DNA of 56,757 nucleotides from Desulfovibrionales bacterium (GTDB lineage Bacteria > Desulfobacterota > Desulfovibrionia > Desulfovibrionales > Desulfovibrionaceae): NCBI GenBank assembly GCA_030156255.1, contig JASGMV010000024.1, positions 1 to 56,757 on the forward strand, read 5' to 3'. The notes below the pieces were generated by a model. That model worked only from the letters and a program-made list of their open reading frames with translations. It searched no databases and was not told the DNA's origin. The translations under genes and the position numbers were made by a program. Positions within the stretch are counted from its first letter, which is position 1. Each line of letters starts with the position of its first letter. Of the stretch, positions 3,472 through 28,593 are shown piece by piece.

Positions 3472-4149
3472 GTCAACTCTCCCTCGTTAAAATCCTGGAG
3501 CGGCGTGTGGCGTCGCGCCAGTGAACAGCCAGCAAGCGGAAATGAAGACCAGGGAATTTCAGGCTACACATCTCGTTACAGTGCGGCAATAATTGAGACA
3601 AAATGGTAACAAACAAATCATGATAACGCTCGTTTGGAGGAAAGTTGCACCGTCGATAGGTAAAGAAGCGTTGTTAACTATCTGATAAGATAAAAAATTA
3701 TTTTTTTAAAAGGCGTTAGAGCAAGTCCAGTCGAACGAGGTGGACGCTTGACGCGCGCCGGCGTGGGCGCCTGCCGTTGCTCAAACGCGCCACCGCTCCG
3801 TCGCCGAGAAAAAATCGAATTGGCCGAGGCGTGCGGGACTTGGTCTTTCCTTGCGTCTCTGGCTGCATTGACCGCCGGGGATGGGCCTTGTTGAGGAAGA
3901 AGTCGAAAGGGGGCAGCCGGTGCGGCGTCGGATGGTCGCCCCGGAAACGTTGTTTTTGCACGTTTCAGGAGGGCGTTAGGCGAGTTGGAAGGGACACGGA
4001 GTTTGGCGGGCGAGGGACTTTGTCGGCCTCGGCCGGAAAAAGACGGTGGGGCGAGGCGGCGTCCGAAAGGACGCGAGGGGTCGTGTTTGCACTTCTTGTT
4101 TGTTGCGCGCTGCAGCCCCGATGGGCAACGCATGCGGGATAGGCCGGAA
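3472..4149. other. 678-bp gap without a supported gene
   Basis: Bases 3580-3720 are A+T-rich (promoter-like composition, with a short TATCT-gata-AGATA dyad near 3680). The rest is GC-rich with several overlapping open frames on both strands, none having a ribosome site or recognisable protein. I see nothing else in it. Confidence 0.5.
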
Positions 4150-17501: not shown

Positions 17502-18269
17502 ATGTCCGAGGAGAAAAAGGCGCAGCAGGGCGAATGGAGAGTCGCTCGCACGCAAGTGGAAAACGACGACGTAACTTCGTTGTTTCTGGAAGGGCCCGTG
17601 GAAAAGGTGAAAAATCGCAAGCCGGGGCAGTTCGCGGTCATCAGAGTCTGGAATGGAGAAGACTGGAGCGAGCCGCATCCCTTCACCATCTCCTGCGCGC
17701 CGGGAGACGGATGTTTGAGGTTCACCATTAAAAACGTCGGGGAGTTCACCTCCAAGATTCGGGACCTGAAGCCCGGAACCCCGATACAATTCTCCGGTCC
17801 CTTCGGCGCGTTTTGCAAGGATATCGATCAGGAGAAGGAGATCGTCATGATCGCCGGCGGCGTCGGCGTCACGCCCTTTCTCAGCGTGCTGCGCCATTTT
17901 CGGGAAATCAAGGCCGACAATCGCGTGGTGCTGTTCTGGGGCAACAAAACGTCGGCCGACGCCTTCGCCTCCGAGGAGCTGGAGGCGATGACCCGAGAGT
18001 TGAATCTCAAGGTGGTTCACGCCTTCGACCACGTCACGCCGGAGGATTTGCCGCCTTCCCCGGACCCGGAGCGGGTCGTACACATCCTCGGCTATTTGAG
18101 CCGCGACGTGCTGCGGGAGCACATCCACACGCCGGAGGCCTCGTTCTATTTGTGCGGGCCGCCGCCCATGCAGAACGCCGTGATCGACGAATTGGCGGCC
18201 TGCGGCGTGGATCCTTCCCGCGTTCAGAAAGAAACCTTCTCCGCGCCGGCCAGGCCCAAAAAGGGGTAG
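17502..18269 (+). CDS. FAD/NAD(P)-binding oxidoreductase (ferredoxin reductase-like, HydG/AsrB-type)
   Basis: 255 residues, with GGAGG before the ATG. The two-domain ferredoxin-NADP reductase architecture is clear. A FAD-binding barrel carries the HPFTIS motif (compare RxYS). The NAD(P)-binding domain has MIAGGVGVTPFLSVLR (about 115-130) and ends in YLCGPPPMQNAVIDEL. There is no transmembrane segment and no C-terminal Fe-S cysteine cluster of the PyrK/AsrB type, so the electron partner must be separate. Relatives pass electrons between NAD(P)H and an Fe-S or haem partner. No hydrogenase or sulfite reductase subunit is adjacent. Its stop lies only a few bases from the convergent HesB-like gene. 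Confidence 0.8.
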   Translation: MSEEKKAQQGEWRVARTQVENDDVTSLFLEGPVEKVKNRKPGQFAVIRVWNGEDWSEPHPFTISCAPGDGCLRFTIKNVGEFTSKIRDLKPGTPIQFSGPFGAFCKDIDQEKEIVMIAGGVGVTPFLSVLRHFREIKADNRVVLFWGNKTSADAFASEELEAMTRELNLKVVHAFDHVTPEDLPPSPDPERVVHILGYLSRDVLREHIHTPEASFYLCGPPPMQNAVIDELAACGVDPSRVQKETFSAPARPKKG

Positions 18270-18276
18270 CACTCGG

Positions 18277-18582
18277 TCAGAAGCTGCAGGTTGCGCCACC
18301 CGGGGCGCTGCGGGAGTAGACGGTCAGGCCGTGGTAATCCACGTCCACGGTGAAGGGCCCGAACGTATCGGCCAACCCCGGCGCGACAAGGAAACGGACG
18401 CCGTTGCTTTCGACCTCGATGTCGCCATCCGCCGGCTCGTCCAGAGCCAGGCCGAGTCTGGGGCCGGTTCAACCGGCTCCCTTGTAGTGAATGCGCAAGG
18501 CTCCCGGCGCGCCTTCGAGCCGGCGGATGATCTCTTGCGCCGCGGCCCGGGTGGCTCGGACCATATTCGAATGATCGTGCAT
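18277..18582 (-). CDS. HesB/IscA-like selenoprotein (in-frame TGA read as selenocysteine)
   Basis: 101 residues if the TGA at 18469-18471 (codon 38) is read through. The frame starts at the ATG at 18580-18582 with GGAG eight bases upstream. Before the TGA the protein reads GALRIHYKGAG; after it, in the same frame, TGPRLGLALDEPADGDIEVE. This is the IscA/HesB pattern LR..Y.G.GC.GP..GLALDE, with the TGA exactly where the first cluster-ligating Cys belongs. HesB-like selenoproteins are a known family in selenocysteine-using deltaproteobacteria. The C-terminal CxC of IscA is reduced to one cysteine (Cys99 in GGATCSF). A SECIS-like hairpin follows the TGA. The likely role is Fe-S or selenium/sulfur handling; no isc/suf genes are adjacent. 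Gene callers would truncate or miss it. Confidence 0.8.
18432..18468 (-). promoter_or_regulatory. SECIS-like hairpin after the recoded TGA
   Basis: Reading leftward from the TGA, bases 18450-18432 form CTGGCTC-tggac-GAGCCGG: a seven-pair stem (one G-U) closed by a five-base loop. The loop begins 25 bases after the TGA and has G at its second position. Known bacterial SECIS elements have an apical loop 16-37 bases downstream of UGA with a G in its first two positions, so the geometry fits. Confidence 0.65.
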
Positions 18583-18810
18583 GCGATGGCTCCGTGTTTT
18601 GTCTTTTCCGTGAGTTATCGCATGCGGGCGTGAAAAGGCAACCAATCCCGGGGCGAAACTTTTTGGCGCGCAACGGCGGTTCGTTCGCGCCAAGGGAGAC
18701 GCCGGCCGGACAAAAGCTCCGCCGCGGCGGCGACGGACTTCAGCCTAGCGCTCCATGAAACGCGAATGGCCAGGGCGAAACCGGCGCCGTTAGAACTTGA
18801 AAGGTTCTTA

Positions 18811-18841
18811 TTGACAGAAGGTTGCGGCGACAGGATACAAT
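18811..18841 (+). promoter_or_regulatory. Putative sigma-70 promoter of cheV
   Basis: TTGACA at 18811-18816 and TACAAT at 18836-18841 are separated by 19 bases, slightly longer than ideal. It lies 30 bases ahead of the cheV start at 18871. Confidence 0.45.
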
Positions 18842-18870
18842 GGCCTACAAATCGTGGAGGAGGGCGAAGC

Positions 18871-19833
18871 ATGAGCCGAAGCGAAACGTTGCTTGAAGTT
18901 GGGACGAATGAGCTTGAGATTATTGAATTTTTTATTGACGAAACCCCCGAGGACGGCGGCGAGCCGATAAAAAACCACTTTGGCGTCAATGTGGCCAAGG
19001 TGCTGGAAGTGATCGAGAGCCCTCAACTCGAAGCCCAGCCTTCGGCGCCGCATCCCTGCTTCATGGGGACGATTCCCCTGCGCGACAAGATCCTGCCGGT
19101 GCTCGACCTGAGCGTCTGGTTGGATATCCCGCGGGCCCAGCACCCCAACGAGGTGATTCTCGTTACCGAGTTCTATGGAAAGATCACCGGATTCCTGTCC
19201 TCGGGCGTGACGCAGATTCACCGCTTGAGCTGGGGCGAAGTGAACCCTCCCAGCAAGTACATCGAGTCCGTCCACGGCAACTGCGTCAACGGCATGGTCC
19301 GCATCGAAGATCGTTTCGTGCTGATGCTGGACTTCGAGCGCATTCTCGCCGAACTGGACCCGGATTTCGACGAAAAAGCCGGGGAAACCGCCGTCCACGC
19401 CCGGGAGAAGTACCGGGCGCTGATGGCGGACGACTCCAAGGCCGTCCGCGCCATGCTCAAGAACAAGCTGGAGGCGGCCAACTTCGAAGTGCTGTTGGTC
19501 AACGACGGCCTGGAGGCCTGGGAGACGCTCAACGGGTTGCGCGAAAAGGCGCAAAGCCAGGGCGAGGACGTCACCGACCTGGTGGACATCGTGGTTTCGG
19601 ATATCGAAATGCCCCGTATGGACGGCTACACCCTGACCAAGCGCATCAAAGACGACAGCCAACTGAACCGGTTGCCGGTCATCCTTTTTTCATCCCTCAT
19701 CCGGGACGACTTGCGCCATAAAGGCGTATCCGTCGGGGCCGACGACCAAATCACCAAACCGGAATTCGATTCGCTCGCCGAAAGGGCGGTGAATTTGGTC
19801 GAAGGCCGCAAGGCCCGAGAAAAAGACGAATAG
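18871..19833 (+). CDS. cheV: Chemotaxis coupling protein CheV (CheW-receiver fusion), copy 1
   Basis: 320 residues, starting at the ATG after GGAGGAGGG. The N-terminal CheW domain (about 15-165; GVNVAKVLEVIESP, IPLRDKILPVLDLSVWL) docks on receptors and CheA. The C-terminal receiver (about 185-315) has the acidic pair in ALMADDSKAVR, the phosphoacceptor Asp in DIVVSDIEMPRMDGY and the lysine in QITKPEF. CheV couples chemoreceptors to the kinase and can be phosphorylated for adaptation. It is closely similar to the second copy at 44284-45255 (shared LLE.GTNELEI.EFFI). No receptor or CheA is adjacent. It ends three bases before the convergent Gln-rich gene. Confidence 0.9.
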   Translation: MSRSETLLEVGTNELEIIEFFIDETPEDGGEPIKNHFGVNVAKVLEVIESPQLEAQPSAPHPCFMGTIPLRDKILPVLDLSVWLDIPRAQHPNEVILVTEFYGKITGFLSSGVTQIHRLSWGEVNPPSKYIESVHGNCVNGMVRIEDRFVLMLDFERILAELDPDFDEKAGETAVHAREKYRALMADDSKAVRAMLKNKLEAANFEVLLVNDGLEAWETLNGLREKAQSQGEDVTDLVDIVVSDIEMPRMDGYTLTKRIKDDSQLNRLPVILFSSLIRDDLRHKGVSVGADDQITKPEFDSLAERAVNLVEGRKAREKDE

Positions 19834-19836
19834 TCC

Positions 19837-20535
19837 TTACTGGCTCTGCTGCTGGCCGGCCTGATTCGCCGCCGGCTGCTGCTGCGCCGGTTGCTGCGGC
19901 TGGGTCTGCGCCGGCTTCGAGGTGGACCCGGTGTCGTAGCCGGAAGTGACGTCCACCGAGGTTTGCACGTCCGAACTCTCCGACTCCTGTCTGGAGTTCG
20001 TCGGCCCAGGCGCCGGCCCCGATTGTTGCGCTTCCGGGGCGGCTTGCTGCGCTTGCGCCGGTTGCGCGGGCTGCTGCTGTTGAGGCTCCGCTTGCTGCGG
20101 GGCCGGCTGTTGCGGTTGCTGCGCCGGCGCCGGCTGCTGATCGGCTTGGTTCGCCGCCGGTTGCTGCTGCTGGGGTTGCTGCGGGGCCGGCTGTTGTTGC
20201 GGCTGTTGCTGTTGCGCCGGCGCCTGGGGAGCTTGCTGCTGCGCCTGCGGCTGTTGCTGCGGTTGCGCCGGTTGCGCCTGGGCCGGTTGCTGCTGGTTTG
20301 GCTGTTGGGGAGCGGTTTGCTGCTGCGCCTGCCCCTGCGGTTGCGTCTGGGTCGGCTGTTGGGGCGCGGCTTGCTGCTGTTGCTGTTGCGGGGCTTGTTG
20401 CTGCGTGGCCGGATCGCTCTGGGCGGGTTGCGTCTGGATTTGGCCGGCGGCCGGGTCTTGCGGATTTTCCTGGGCCAGGGCAGGAGTCGCCGAAGCGAAA
20501 AACGCCGTGAGAACAAGCGCCAAAAGTTTTTTCAT
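19837..20535 (-). CDS. Exported Gln/Pro/Ala-rich low-complexity protein
   Basis: 232 residues. MKKLLALVLTAFFASATPALA is a signal peptide, and AAGGA sits upstream of the start. The rest is almost wholly Gln, Pro and Ala (about 85 glutamines, runs up to six). Only one less biased stretch near residues 175-205 contains SESSDVQTSVDVTSGYDTGS. There is no recognisable fold, cysteine or anchor. It should be an extended, disordered periplasmic or outer-surface protein, perhaps a spacer or binding scaffold; function is unknown. The DNA is built of near-repeated CAG/CAA/CCG codons, so length is likely to vary between strains by slippage. Confidence 0.7.
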   Translation of the reverse strand: MKKLLALVLTAFFASATPALAQENPQDPAAGQIQTQPAQSDPATQQQAPQQQQQQAAPQQPTQTQPQGQAQQQTAPQQPNQQQPAQAQPAQPQQQPQAQQQAPQAPAQQQQPQQQPAPQQPQQQQPAANQADQQPAPAQQPQQPAPQQAEPQQQQPAQPAQAQQAAPEAQQSGPAPGPTNSRQESESSDVQTSVDVTSGYDTGSTSKPAQTQPQQPAQQQPAANQAGQQQSQ

Positions 20536-22341: not shown

Positions 22342-23652
22342 TCAGGTCTTCGGAAGCCAGACCTCCGCCAGTTCCGGGCCGAAGTAGGCCCGCTCGTTTT
22401 CCGCCAACATGCCGAGGCTCAGGCAGAGGATGCTCCACAGGTTCACGGTGCGCCAGCCTCCCTTGTAGTGCTCGGAGAGCTCCTCGATCTGCGCATGGCA
22501 GTTGTGGCAGGGCGTGATCACGTAATCCGCTCTGGTCGCCTTGATCTGTCCGGCCTTGACGCGTCCGTAGGCCAGCCGTGCGTCCTTGAATCCCGATTGC
22601 AGGAAGCCTCCCCCGCCGCCGCAGCAATAATTGTTGGACCGGTTGGGGAACATGTCCACGAAGTTTTCCTCGCCCACGCACGCCTTGACCACAAAGCGCA
22701 GCTCTTCGGCGAAAGCGTCGCCCATGGACTTGCGCACGGCCATGCACGGGTCCTGGACCGTGAACCGAAGCTTCAGGTCCTTGTTCCATTCGCTGCTGGG
22801 CGTGAGTCTGCCCTCGCGAATCCAGCGGGCGTACCAGTTGACGATGTGGTCGAAGTCGACTCCGCCGGTGTCCATGCCGAATCGCTGAAGACCGGCCCAG
22901 ATGGAGTAAAAGGAGTGGCCGCATTCTATGTTGACCCAGGATTTGCAGCCGAGATTTTTGACTCCGAGGACCTGCTTGTCCAGGATTTCGCGCCAGTGCT
23001 CGTCCTCGGCCGCGAACATGCAGTAGTTTTCCGCGCCCCAGCCCGTGGACCCGTAGGTCCAATCGACGCCGGCCCGGTGGAGAATTTTCCATAGGGGCGC
23101 CATTTCTTCGGGCTCTTTGACCGGCTCCCGGGAGTTCTGGTTGAAGAAGAAATAGGCGCCTTCCTTGTCGATGGGGGCCTGCAGGTCTTCGAAACCGGGC
23201 TGGGTCTCGTGGATTTCCTCCAGCACGTCGTCCACCACGAAGCGGAAGTCGTCGCTGGAAATCCCCACGGCGCTTGCGCCTTGGGTGCGCAGGCCCTGGT
23301 CGCAGGAGCCGATGATCCCCTTGGGTTTTTTGTCTCGCGGCCAACCGGCCCGCAGTTCGTAGACCAGGGCCGGAATGTCCACCTGCATGGGGCAGACCTC
23401 CTTGCAGCGGAAGCACATGGTGCACATCCATACCCAGGGCGTGGAGGCGATTTCCTCGTCCAGTCCCAGGGCGGCCATGCGCAGCAGCTTTCGGGGGTTC
23501 ATGTCTTCGAGGCCGGAGGCGGGACATCCGGCGGAGCACAGTCCGCAGGTGAGGCAAAGATCAAGGTTGCCCCCCGCGGGAAGCAGTTCGGACACTTTGT
23601 CCACAAAAGCGCCGCGTCGTTTGTCGTCGATTCGAATCGCCGGTTCGACCAT
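22342..23652 (-). CDS. HdrD/DsrK/TmcB-type Fe-S oxidoreductase
   Basis: 436 residues, ribosome site AAGGAG. It has two N-terminal [4Fe-4S] motifs, CLTCGLCSAGCP (33-44) and CTMCFRCKEVCP (77-88). A C-terminal CCG domain, YCCGGGGGF with the later CHNCHAQI, binds the noncubane cluster of heterodisulfide reductases. The first CCG repeat is degenerate (NIECGHSFY only). There is no transmembrane segment, so it would be a cytosolic, membrane-associated subunit. In sulfate reducers such proteins (DsrK, HmcF, TmcB) pass electrons from membrane cytochrome complexes to thiol-disulfide partners such as DsrC. The usual partner subunits (cytochrome c, membrane cytochrome b) are not adjacent, so the exact complex is unknown. 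Confidence 0.8.
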   Translation of the reverse strand: MVEPAIRIDDKRRGAFVDKVSELLPAGGNLDLCLTCGLCSAGCPASGLEDMNPRKLLRMAALGLDEEIASTPWVWMCTMCFRCKEVCPMQVDIPALVYELRAGWPRDKKPKGIIGSCDQGLRTQGASAVGISSDDFRFVVDDVLEEIHETQPGFEDLQAPIDKEGAYFFFNQNSREPVKEPEEMAPLWKILHRAGVDWTYGSTGWGAENYCMFAAEDEHWREILDKQVLGVKNLGCKSWVNIECGHSFYSIWAGLQRFGMDTGGVDFDHIVNWYARWIREGRLTPSSEWNKDLKLRFTVQDPCMAVRKSMGDAFAEELRFVVKACVGEENFVDMFPNRSNNYCCGGGGGFLQSGFKDARLAYGRVKAGQIKATRADYVITPCHNCHAQIEELSEHYKGGWRTVNLWSILCLSLGMLAENERAYFGPELAEVWLPKT

Positions 23653-24618: not shown

Positions 24619-27600
24619 TTACGCTTTCGTTTCAAGGGGGGTGGAGCACGATTCTATATCGGGGCAGCGCGCCTTTTCCGGCTTGAAACTTGATATTTCC
24701 ACGGACGGTGTAACGGCGGTCTGGGTGGTTTTGCGCAAGAATCCTTTCGGGTCGTCGCGCAGCTGATTGCCGTAGACGTTCGTGGTCTGGCAAAAGGCCT
24801 CTCCCCAGCTGGTGGAGTAGGCGATGGACGATTCGAAGATGGCGTTCACGTCCCGTTTGCAGGTCAGATTGAGAATCAGCAGGGCTCGCAGCATGATTTC
24901 GGGTTTGTCCATCAGCGAGATGTTGATGTCCAGGTACTGGCTGCGTACGAAAAATTGGTCCATGAGGAACAAGAGCTGCTGGATATCTTTGGGAGTTATC
25001 GGGTTGGCGGTGTAGTCCACCTCGAACCTGCAGGACGGATCGTACAGGCCGTTGACCACATACCAGAGCAGCAGCCGGGCCAGATCGTCGTCGCGCCAGA
25101 TTTCGACGAGGTTTTCCTTGGAGACCTTCTGCTCCGCGGGGACGCCTCGCAGCATCCATTGGGACGGCCTGCCCGACGCTTTTTCGCAAAACAGAATGAC
25201 GTGGTGGAAGCGCCGGCTCATCAACCGCAGGAACGGGATGCGTCCGACTTTGTTTTTCCGCCGGGCGAACAGGATGTCCATCTTCCGCTCCAGTTGCTCA
25301 AGACGCTGGGGGGCGATTTGAAGCGCGGCGCCGGGCTGCATCGACTCGGCGGCGATGCGTTTGACGGCGTCGCGGATGAAGGCGCCGAAGACCTTTCCGG
25401 ATTTCGTCATGTATTCGAAACTCGTCTCGGCCGCCAGGCAGTGCTTCAGGATGTTCTTGGCGCCCTTGGTTTCTTTGAAGATGTCCTGGACGCATCGAGA
25501 CTTGTGCCCGGCCCAGGCCTGGTCCAAAGCCAATTCGACGTCCTTGCCTCCGGACTGCAGCGCGAAAGCCAGACCGGTAAGCTCCGCGGCTTTGCGATCC
25601 CCGCAGGCGATCAAAAAGTTGAAGGTCTCCCGGAACAGGGCGGCCCACGGGTCCACGTCCGCCAGATCACAGGAGCCTTCGAACACCCGCTGCTTGATCT
25701 TGTCGAAGACGAAAATTTCCGAGGGGTCCTCGTTGATCAGGAATCGCTGCAGTACGCCGTAGCGGATGAGGCAGACGAAGGGATTGGTGAATACGTCGGC
25801 CAGCTCGAACAAACAGGCTTCGAAAAACACCTGGGGATCGAGATTCGTGGGGAAGCCCAAGTCCAATGAGCGTTCTTCGAAAAAATAGGGAATGGACGCC
25901 AGTTGCTCCTGGTGTTCGCCGTGTTCCCGCTCGGTGACTCCGGGCGGCGTCAGCCACCAGGTGGGCGTTTTCCCGTACAGCGGCAAAAGCGTACGGCTGA
26001 GTTGCTCCTTGTGGAGCGCGGCCTGGCCGGGCGTCAGCTCCTCCCATTCAGGCGGAGCGTAGCCGCCTTTGCAGATGGAGCTCGCGTCGGCCACGGTGAA
26101 AAGCAGCCGCACGGAGTAGTGTTTCTGGGCGAAGGCTGCGACGCTCGCGAGCCTTCTTTTCAGCGCCGCCGCGGCGTTTTTGTCGGCCGGGGGATTTTCC
26201 AGCAACAGCAGCAACCGGGCGATCGAGCCGCCGGGCTGCGCCAGAGAGCCGAATTGCCCCACGGCGTACAAGCCGGCCACGGGCGCGGCGTCGCGGGCCG
26301 GCTCCGCCAAATCCATCATCCCGAACTGCTTTTGCAGCATTTCCCAACAGGAGAAGTCCGGAGCGTAGTCGAAGATGTCCAGATGCTGCTGGTTGTTGGC
26401 CTGGCGGGCGTCTCCGGGAGGGCCGAACTGCAAGGCGTAGGGCAGCAGGGTGAAAAGCTCCCTGGCCTTGGGCGGCTGGGGCTCCATGGCCATGTCCGTC
26501 CGTCGCCGCACGTAAGCCGCGTAGCGTTCCTCCTTGCGCGCGGCGTCTTCCTTGGGGAACCAGTTGTCCACCAGAAGCTGGATCATGTCCGAACATATCT
26601 CGCTGGCGGTCCAGCCGGGGACGTTCGCCGGAGGCCTAGCCGGCAGGTTGCCCGCCAGCCTTTCGCGGCGTCCGCAGTGGGCCGCTTGCAGCAAGGCCTG
26701 GGAAGAGGCGGCGTGCAGGCCGTAGCCGTGGACCAGACGGAAATGGCAGCCCTGGGTCGACAGGTTGCTGGCGTGGGTCTTCGCCAGCAGGGTGCGATGC
26801 AGCACGCAATCCAGCAACTCCAAGCCGTTGATCTGACAGGAGATGAAGCGGGCGTCCGAGAGGTCGGCGCCTTCCAGCCTGGAAGCGCTCAAGGCGCATC
26901 CCTCCAGCACGACCCGAAGAAAGCTCGTTTCCCGCGCCATGGACCGGCTGAAGTCCATGTTCTGCAGATACGACGCTTCGAAGCTGCTGCGGGAGCATAC
27001 CAGCCCGGCGACTTCGCTTTCCTCCAGCCGGGCGCCGCTGAAGTCGCAGCTCTTCATGAAGGACCACTTGAGGAAGCACTTGGAGATCCTGGCGTTTGTG
27101 AAGCAACAGTTTTCGAAGGTGCAGTCCGCGAAATAGACGTTGTCGATGACGCAGGCTTCGAAAACGCAATCCCGGAAGGAAACGGACTGGAAATGCGAGC
27201 CCCGGACAGCGCCGCGAGTGAATTTGCAATGCGATACGGAGAGGTGCGAAGCCTCGACGCTCTCCAGCGTCCGTCCCGCCAAATCCAAGCCGAAGAGGTC
27301 TTTCTGCTCGCGCAACCTTTCTTTTGTTTGTTCGAGCGGGTCCGGCCCGGAGTCTTTTTTGAACACCTTGGCCAGAGAGCGCGAGGCGACGTTTTTTTCC
27401 TTGTCGGGCGCGGAGGGCGGGCCTTGCTGCGCGTCGGCCGGCGCGGACAGGCCCAGGACGGCCTTGTCGTGCTCGATGACGAATTCCTGGACATTGATCA
27501 GGTTTTGTTGATCCAGCTGATACAGCCTGGGCACCTTCTCCACGTAGTCGGCCAGAAATTGCGTCACCCATTCGGGATCGCTGTGAATGAGCGTCGTCAG

Positions 27601-28593
27601 CAAAACGCCGTCGGCCTTGGCGCGAAGTTTTTCGTCGAACCGGTCCAGCAGCCTGTTCAGTTGGGACGTGTCCAGCAAGCAAAGCCTGCGCAGCGTCTGC
27701 TCGGCGATGTCGGGCCGTTTCTTGAGCAGGAAAAGGAAGACTTTTTCTATGTTCGGGGCGTTCAGTTTGATGAGGGCCTCGAGGGAGGCGAAGATGATCT
27801 CGGGGGATTTGGCGGCGACGATCCGTTCAAGGATTTGTTTCGCCAGACCGCGTCCGGCGACGCCGAGCTTGGCCACGGCGCGCAGCAGGGGCAAATCCGT
27901 TTTGGGGTTCGCTCCGAGCAACTCGGCCACGGGAGCTTCGGGCAGGGGGCGTCCCAACTGCTCGAGGCCCGCCAGAACGTTTCGCAGGCGCTTGGCCTTT
28001 GCGCCGGCATTCAGTTCGTCGATGGACCAGGCCCAAAAGCCGTCGCGGTACAGAACGTCCTCAACTGCCGGGGACAGGCTCCCGCCGTACAGGCGCAGTA
28101 TGGCGAGCAGCCGGACGTAGTCCTCGGGTTTGCGGATCGTGGGGGTGAAGAGCAATCTGGACGCCAGGGCCTTGGCGCTGGGTTCGGCTCGCCGGGCGGC
28201 CATGGTGTACTGGTTGAGCAGCAGCAGGCGCTCGTATTCTTCGAGATTATCGAGGGCGCTGGCGTAGGAGTCGCGGACGGCGCGGTTGCATTTGACCATG
28301 AAGTGGCGCGCGCCAAGAACCCAGCCGATAGGGCCGCAATGGGTCCAGAGGCCGAAAATGATCTCCAGCAACTCCCCGGCCTGGGTCGCCAGGGCGATCC
28401 GCCAGAGCGGGTAGGCGATGCGGGCCTGGAGCCGGGAGAATTCCCGTGGGTCGGCGGCTGAATCCGGATAGATGGAGGCCAGTTTGTCCTGCACCAGCCG
28501 CAAGTCCCGCCAGCGGTATGGCGGCGGCGGGGCGCCGTCCAACGCATTGATGGCGGCGCTGACCTGCTGAAGCGATTCGAGAGGATCGGTCAT
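24619..28593 (-). CDS. Class I adenylate cyclase homologue with HEAT-like and pentapeptide regions; catalytic DxD lost
   Basis: 1324 residues. Residues 1-370 are helical, HEAT-like. Residues about 430-620 are a pentapeptide-repeat solenoid (CKFTRGAVRGSHF, SCDFSGARLEE, GADLSDARF). Residues about 710-1030 match class I (enterobacterial CyaA) adenylate cyclase: LFTLLPYALQFGPP; VAGLYAVGQFGSLAQ, like ITGVYTMGSTSSVGQ; SRTLLPLYGKTPTWWLTPPG; RSLDLGFPTNLDPQVFF; and FDKIKQRVFEG, like AKDIKQRLHDG. In CyaA the glycine loop leads to SSDLDIW, with the metal-binding aspartates; here the same place reads GGSIARLL (789-793), so both aspartates are gone. It is probably a non-catalytic, regulatory or cyclic-nucleotide-unrelated derivative. 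No clear ribosome site precedes the ATG. The cyclase assignment rests on my by-eye alignment. Confidence 0.75.
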   Translation of the reverse strand: MTDPLESLQQVSAAINALDGAPPPPYRWRDLRLVQDKLASIYPDSAADPREFSRLQARIAYPLWRIALATQAGELLEIIFGLWTHCGPIGWVLGARHFMVKCNRAVRDSYASALDNLEEYERLLLLNQYTMAARRAEPSAKALASRLLFTPTIRKPEDYVRLLAILRLYGGSLSPAVEDVLYRDGFWAWSIDELNAGAKAKRLRNVLAGLEQLGRPLPEAPVAELLGANPKTDLPLLRAVAKLGVAGRGLAKQILERIVAAKSPEIIFASLEALIKLNAPNIEKVFLFLLKKRPDIAEQTLRRLCLLDTSQLNRLLDRFDEKLRAKADGVLLTTLIHSDPEWVTQFLADYVEKVPRLYQLDQQNLINVQEFVIEHDKAVLGLSAPADAQQGPPSAPDKEKNVASRSLAKVFKKDSGPDPLEQTKERLREQKDLFGLDLAGRTLESVEASHLSVSHCKFTRGAVRGSHFQSVSFRDCVFEACVIDNVYFADCTFENCCFTNARISKCFLKWSFMKSCDFSGARLEESEVAGLVCSRSSFEASYLQNMDFSRSMARETSFLRVVLEGCALSASRLEGADLSDARFISCQINGLELLDCVLHRTLLAKTHASNLSTQGCHFRLVHGYGLHAASSQALLQAAHCGRRERLAGNLPARPPANVPGWTASEICSDMIQLLVDNWFPKEDAARKEERYAAYVRRRTDMAMEPQPPKARELFTLLPYALQFGPPGDARQANNQQHLDIFDYAPDFSCWEMLQKQFGMMDLAEPARDAAPVAGLYAVGQFGSLAQPGGSIARLLLLLENPPADKNAAAALKRRLASVAAFAQKHYSVRLLFTVADASSICKGGYAPPEWEELTPGQAALHKEQLSRTLLPLYGKTPTWWLTPPGVTEREHGEHQEQLASIPYFFEERSLDLGFPTNLDPQVFFEACLFELADVFTNPFVCLIRYGVLQRFLINEDPSEIFVFDKIKQRVFEGSCDLADVDPWAALFRETFNFLIACGDRKAAELTGLAFALQSGGKDVELALDQAWAGHKSRCVQDIFKETKGAKNILKHCLAAETSFEYMTKSGKVFGAFIRDAVKRIAAESMQPGAALQIAPQRLEQLERKMDILFARRKNKVGRIPFLRLMSRRFHHVILFCEKASGRPSQWMLRGVPAEQKVSKENLVEIWRDDDLARLLLWYVVNGLYDPSCRFEVDYTANPITPKDIQQLLFLMDQFFVRSQYLDINISLMDKPEIMLRALLILNLTCKRDVNAIFESSIAYSTSWGEAFCQTTNVYGNQLRDDPKGFLRKTTQTAVTPSVEISSFKPEKARCPDIESCSTPLETKA

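Follow-up and report, generated by a model that had tools for sequence, protein, structure and literature searches.

The locus and its surroundings

The window analysed here, a stretch of 56,757 nucleotides, holds a short HesB/IscA-like gene that is read on the minus strand from an ATG at 18582 to 18277. The frame can be written as MHDHSNMVRATRAAAQEIIRRLEGAPGALRIHYKGAG-U-TGPRLGLALDEPADGDIEVESNGVRFLVAPGLADTFGPFTVDVDYHGLTVYSRSAPGGATCSF-stop, with TGA both at codon 38 and as the last codon; beyond codon 38, the read-through translation meets no other internal stop. The initial annotation placed the gene at 18277-18582, correctly, and left the strand unstated. Read on the plus strand, the same interval is meaningless. 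The annotation had also described the TGA as flanked in one frame by IscA/HesB peptides, and both of these (GALRIHYKGAG and TGPRLGLALDEP) are present. Gene calling that stops at TGA 38 would yield only a 37-residue stub. The features used below are as follows:

18277..18582, minus strand: probable HesB/IscA-like selenoprotein gene, 101 codons plus a TGA stop (18279-18277), in read-through translation
18590..18593, minus strand: GGAG, probable ribosome-binding site judged from sequence, 7 bases upstream of the ATG at 18582
18469..18471, minus strand: TGA codon 38, read as probable selenocysteine from the aligned Sec/Cys column and the sel genes
18432..18450, minus strand: SECIS-type hairpin of seven pairs (CUGGCUC with GAGCCGG), loop UGGAC at 18443-18439, core of five pairs (18448-18444 with 18438-18434)
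18286..18288, minus strand: Cys99, the sole cysteine of the protein, aligned with the invariant C-terminal Cys of Bacilli selenoproteins (alignment A1)

The UGA is aligned with the conserved IscA/HesB Cys and is followed by xGP, giving a UTGP motif at residues 38-41. Codon-position G+C on the 3' side of TGA 38 is 0.68/0.52/0.83, and the third-position value is like that of four long frames in the window (0.79-0.84). Recoding of the second TGA, at codon 102, through a hairpin of its own was also considered; a 50-base fold exists (-13.8 kcal/mol), but no likeness to the family was seen in the read-through tail, and this TGA is taken as the stop.

On one side, a FAD- and NAD-binding-domain protein (17502-18269, plus strand) converges on the gene, from which it is separated by 7 bases; on the other side, a CheW/response-regulator protein (18766-19833, plus strand) diverges from it. 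With one convergent and one divergent neighbour, the gene therefore stands alone. A search for a sigma-70 promoter at 18200-18900 gave no match. Farther along the minus strand are a 232-residue frame in which a signal-like start gives way to a sequence mostly of Gln, Pro and Ala (19837-20535), an HmcF/TmcB/DsrK-like Fe-S protein scoring under the equivalog cut-offs (22345-23652), a hint that the organism may live by sulfate reduction, and a protein of 1324 residues that combines pentapeptide repeats with class-I adenylate cyclase domains (24622-28593).

Selenocysteine machinery and the codon-38 column

The genome that contains the window (G000) encodes the apparatus for selenocysteine insertion. 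Its tRNA-Sec scores 82.4 bits and is called by ARAGORN as tRNA-SeC with anticodon tca, and SelA (592.9 bits), SelB (357.6 bits) and SelD (341.3 bits, with an in-frame TGA of its own) all lie above their curated cut-offs. An absence of sel genes, which the initial annotation held would speak against recoding, is thus not what the genome shows, as selA, selB, selC and selD are all four present.

Relatives were drawn from 59 genomes including the window's own (55 of the 59 with a match), and the best hits were added from a search of 288 genomes of the family, of which 261 gave a match. Their frames were read with TGA open and with TAA and TAG as stops, so that neither of the latter could appear in the codon-38 count, and were then aligned. 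The resulting 146 rows are distinct gene sequences passing a filter of E 1e-5, the window gene among them, with family-wide matches represented by best-match loci. The column contains TGA in 76 rows, TGC in 55, TGT in 14 and GCC in one, that is, a Cys codon in 69 and an Ala codon in a single row, and the frame is kept downstream. A random codon at this site with loss of frame in the relatives, the other outcome named beforehand as adverse, is therefore not seen. Exchange of Sec and Cys is a recognised sign of selenoproteins, and searches for Cys/TGA pairs are described in the available part of PMC9312934.

Five weaker matches (of 100) stand outside these counts; two of them are TGA genes (L172 and L173) and the other three are Cys genes. 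One of the Cys rows, L097, is misplaced in the column by its GCGVU motif. In this HesB-like gene (G012:C149, minus strand) a TGA occurs three codons past the aligned-column Cys, with a weak hairpin after it, and it may represent another Sec position in the IscA/HesB fold.

A second set comes from the GTDB collection, in which 30 loci were found (L109-L138), all from genera that we take, from the record titles, to be Bacilli (Alkalihalophilus, Halalkalibacter, Salibacterium, Cytobacillus and others). These HesB-like genes have TGA at the site in 29 of the 30 loci and continue past it into a short tail with C or CC at its end; the remaining locus, L127, gave no reading at the site. The search required exact query peptides, GLALDEPA foremost, and the set is thus selected for them. 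Alignment A1 joins the window protein to 18 proteins out of the 30 Bacilli records, and the columns of Sec38 and Cys99 are invariant in it. A plasmid search returned two records, again from Bacilli, with partial matches of 50-52 bits, and a phage search returned no match.

The SECIS-type hairpin

The seven-pair hairpin with a UGGAC loop that the initial annotation placed after the TGA is found at 18450-18432. From the outermost pair inward it consists of CG, UG, GC, GC, CG, UA and CG; the stem begins 18 bases after the TGA, the core at 20 and the loop at 25. In bacterial SECIS elements a G is expected in the first two loop positions, and the window gene has both a hairpin just 3' of the UGA and a loop that follows this rule.

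The comparison with relatives is more telling than the single fold. With bases numbered from 0 after the TGA, the core joins bases 20-24 to bases 30-34, and all five pairs can form in 74 of the 76 TGA genes, as against 2 of the 69 Cys genes; the core is thus a clean way to separate Sec from Cys copies, and it supports the SECIS claimed earlier for this gene. Most genes of both groups encode LALDE in this region and differ in their choice of codons, the TGA genes sharing GCT CTG GAY GAG with few exceptions, and in the residue after Glu. Bases 33-34 are the first two of that residue, which is usually Pro or Gln in TGA genes and covers a wider range in Cys genes; the contrast in pairing is partly one at the protein level. 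Two-sided compensatory changes occur in L026 and L080 (GGCCC/GGGCC, with the conserved Glu changed to Gly) and in L094 (GGTTC/GAACC, with Ala changed to Val), and L173 retains GGCTC/GAGCC even with LALDE changed to LAPGE. Among the Bacilli TGA loci, 19 of 29 form all five core pairs and the other 10 form four.

Synonymous shuffling also separates the two groups, with a mean z of -1.23 for the 76 TGA genes versus -0.05 for the 69 Cys genes (Mann-Whitney p 1.8e-7); at most one of 30 shuffles is as stable as the native sequence in 28 of the 76 and in 5 of the 69, respectively. Raw hairpin energies are nearly equal (mean -8.04 versus -6.64, p 0.08), and it is the shuffle-corrected values that differ. 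The energy of the window hairpin is by itself unremarkable (z -0.67, with 6 of 30 synonymous shuffles folding as well). In 200,000 random synonymous versions of the window gene, with the protein sequence fixed and codons sampled from six long window frames, the five-pair core is kept in 2.0% and all seven pairs in 0.9%; the core uses the Ala codon GCT, which is rare in the six frames (37 of 524 Ala codons). A genome-wide search for the TGA-plus-SECIS pattern with at most three mismatches finds two sites, the window gene and a HesB-like gene on contig C30, and none in the reversed control; the pattern was one N short, which accounts for 2 and 3 mismatches at its two sites. Folding energy over the whole stretch was uninformative as evidence for a SECIS, and an Rfam search of the stretch gave no family match. 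The strong evidence for the SECIS is comparative, rather than the folding energy of one gene.

These observations bear on a rival explanation, in which a TGC or TGT has been misread as TGA in the assembly. The gene is known from a single genome, as an assembly of 106 contigs. Nevertheless, the five-pair core that marks TGA genes and is nearly absent from Cys genes stands after the window TGA, and we regard such an error as extremely improbable.

Protein family and predicted fold

Among curated models, the closest to the window protein is NF038090 (IscA_HesB_Se), which matches residues 7-100 with 55.3 bits (E=6.3e-15; 48.2 bits in the whole-genome search), under a cut-off of 85. The scores against TIGR01911 (HesB_rel_seleno; 35 bits, cut-off 66.35) and Pfam PF01521 (23.3 bits, cut-off 26.3) are likewise below threshold. 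A Sec protein from Bacilli is also below both selenoprotein cut-offs, at 47.9 bits (TIGR01911) and 52 bits (NF038090).

The predicted structure of the window protein has the order H-E-E-E-E-H-E-E, at modest confidence (mean pLDDT 63.9). In a fold search with this model, the top PDB matches are IscA with a [2Fe-2S] cluster, HI1723, E. coli IscA, DsrR and SufA; the Foldseek match to IscA (1x0g_C) has E 1.3e-4 and TM 0.61, which places the predicted protein in the IscA fold at that model confidence.

Other HesB-like copies in the genome and the order

G000 also carries a standard HesB-like pair on contig C30, about 4 kb from selD, whose members score 111 and 104.5 bits against NF038090. At this locus (L039, G000:C30:9000-15360, plus strand) the Sec gene starts at 3568 and the Cys paralogue follows from about 4071, near the UGA-containing selD. 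Same-strand tandems of HesB-like Sec and Cys genes occur at 31 loci (e.g. L039, L010, L139 and L053), with the Sec gene first in 27; these are loci of the relatives' set, counted once per distinct Sec-protein start. The arrangement suggests that the two genes work together or that one serves as a backup independent of selenium.

By sequence comparison, the window gene adds a third HesB-like paralogue to the C30 pair of this genome, a divergent orphan that stands as a single gene. Across 348 genomes of the order, nothing else matches the window copy better than 68 bits (41% identity). Some weaker, shorter matches are up to 48% identical along a portion of the length. No orthologue was recognised in the 348 genomes, and selection on the window copy itself is thus not measurable. 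One Cys follows the Sec in the window copy, whereas at least three do so in 73 of the 76 TGA rows; this Cys-rich tail, as a feature of the NF038090 type, is our reading of the relatives' alignment.

Four other divergent solo TGA copies lacking the usual Cys-rich tail were found in the 59 genomes: L094 (G026:C55), with one Cys after the Sec; L091 (G012:C31), with three Cys outside the usual place; L172 (G027:C5), with none and with its hairpin shifted (the default fold pairs GCGGCCCU with GGGGCCGC); and L173 (G001:C112), with one Cys that is not C-terminal. Default folds of L094 and L173 favour other structures, so the SECIS in these two is a possible local hairpin rather than the predicted minimum. 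L094 is directly followed by a frame resembling a Tat-signal ferredoxin, with an octahaem cytochrome further on. Nothing common to the four copies was seen in the 10 flanking frames tested. In a quick tree that took in the window copy, L094 and L091, but neither L172 nor L173, the window copy lies on a long branch (1.78) whose placement is not settled; L094 and L091 are also long branches, attached elsewhere, and the tree output itself carries a warning about this. By this tree, the divergent solo TGA copies need not form one lineage.

An orphan, solo gene with a long branch, a short tail and scores under the family cut-offs is also what might be expected of a pseudogene undergoing decay, in which the TGA would be an ordinary nonsense codon of an old HesB-like copy. 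Such decay would have had to put the sole internal stop, a TGA, exactly in the Sec/Cys column and to leave both the SECIS core, including its rare GCT codon, and a gene-like third-position G+C after the TGA intact, and we consider it very unlikely. The favoured reading is that the window gene encodes a HesB/IscA-like protein with selenocysteine inserted at UGA 38; on the sequence evidence assembled here, we put its probability at about 0.9.

Possible function

In the proposed mechanism, the ribosome would reach UGA 38, where a complex of SelB, GTP and Sec-tRNA(Sec) would bind the hairpin starting 18 bases on and Sec would be inserted; we infer this step from the presence of the sel genes and the conservation of the hairpin. 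The product would be a 101-residue protein of the IscA fold with Sec at the position of the first ligand Cys of the A-type carriers. The earlier statement that Sec38 replaces the first cluster-ligand Cys, with Cys99 the sole Cys left, is right as a statement about the alignment. Ligation of a cluster by these two residues is a further step: the protein may act as a dimer or a tetramer in which Sec38 and Cys99 bind either iron or a small Fe-S cluster, a role to which we give about even odds.

A serious competitor, to which we give somewhat less than an even chance, accepts that Sec is decoded and takes the protein to be no Fe-S carrier at all, but a small selenol redox protein or one that handles selenium or sulfur on the IscA fold. 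Divergent copies keep UGA and SECIS-type pairing without the Cys-rich tail (the window copy and L094 with a single Cys, L173 with one that is not C-terminal, and L172 with none), in agreement with such a role, and most uncharacterised selenoproteins are probably redox proteins according to the part of a review that was available (PMC13188914). On the other hand, Cys99 has been retained, and the matching Cys is invariant in the 18 aligned Bacilli rows; the best match of the predicted fold is a cluster-bearing IscA. Moreover, no protein of the IscA/ErpA/SufA type scoring above the Pfam cut-off for PF01521 was found in the whole G000 genome, and the work of an A-type carrier may thus fall to its HesB-like proteins.

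A wider proposal takes in the other solo copies. In addition to the standard HesB-like genes, the order may have scattered, fast-changing solo HesB paralogues that have lost the Cys-rich tail while UGA and SECIS stay under selection, with the selenol and at most one or a few Cys at the heart of the site; they would have either a natural minimal site where Se ligates an Fe-S cluster (or iron), or an IscA-fold function that depends on Sec alone. We offer this as speculation that is rather unlikely to hold. Whichever function applies, a copy pared down to a single Sec and a single Cys offers a simple way to test whether Sec can ligate an Fe-S cluster in an A-type carrier or serves redox chemistry.

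Comparison with known systems

The premise of the initial annotation that HesB-like selenoproteins exist agrees with the literature, where they have been listed since the mid-2000s with Desulfovibrio included. In the portions of the papers available, HesB is among the known selenoproteins of a 2005 paper (PMC1242214), D. vulgaris and D. desulfuricans are tabulated with a HesB-like selenoprotein (PMC1794560), DVU_1382 is a HesB-family TGA gene (PMC1914089), a 2016 survey puts the number of HesB-like selenoproteins at 90, spread over 86 organisms (PMC5029168), and the name 'UxGP' is used (PMC13188914). For Methanococcus maripaludis, the excerpt of a 2024 paper (PMC11097638) reports that mutagenesis and 75Se labelling identified the HesB-like protein as a selenoprotein, that its function is 'not clear', and that a disruption mutant still fixed nitrogen (an unpublished observation). 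Searches of open-licence papers turned up no title or abstract opening that refers to HesB copies in tandem or lacking the tail.

The HesB-like selenoprotein family described by TIGR01911 ('UxGP') has Sec at the first IscA Cys, the UxGP motif and a small single domain, as does the window copy, which is nonetheless below the family cut-off (35 versus 66.35 bits). With the IscA/ErpA/SufA A-type carriers (PF01521) the window protein has the predicted fold in common. These carriers have a C-terminal CxC; the window copy differs in having Sec for Cys, one C-terminal Cys in place of CxC and a PF01521 score below the cut-off.

The HesB-like selenoproteins of Bacilli (e.g. L115, from Alkalihalophilus pseudofirmus OF4) have in common with the window copy a UxxPxxGLALDEPA core and a short C-terminus with one or two Cys at the end, at 28-34% identity. 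This likeness in the core was selected for, since the proteins were found through a query peptide present in the window protein. In profile scores, the Bacilli type (46 bits) comes no closer to the window copy than the type found in its own order does (59-67 bits). Horizontal transfer from Bacilli, at which the GLALDEPA core and short tail hint, is not favoured by these scores, and the hits are biased by the query peptides.

The NF038090 type matches the window copy over nearly its full length, and the SECIS core is identical to that of the C30 Sec gene. The differences are that the window copy reaches 55.3 bits where the members of the C30 pair reach 111 and 104.5, that a lone Cys99 replaces the Cys-rich tail and that there is no Cys partner. 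The kind of protein is thus already known; what is new is a stripped-down, divergent copy that keeps its Sec.
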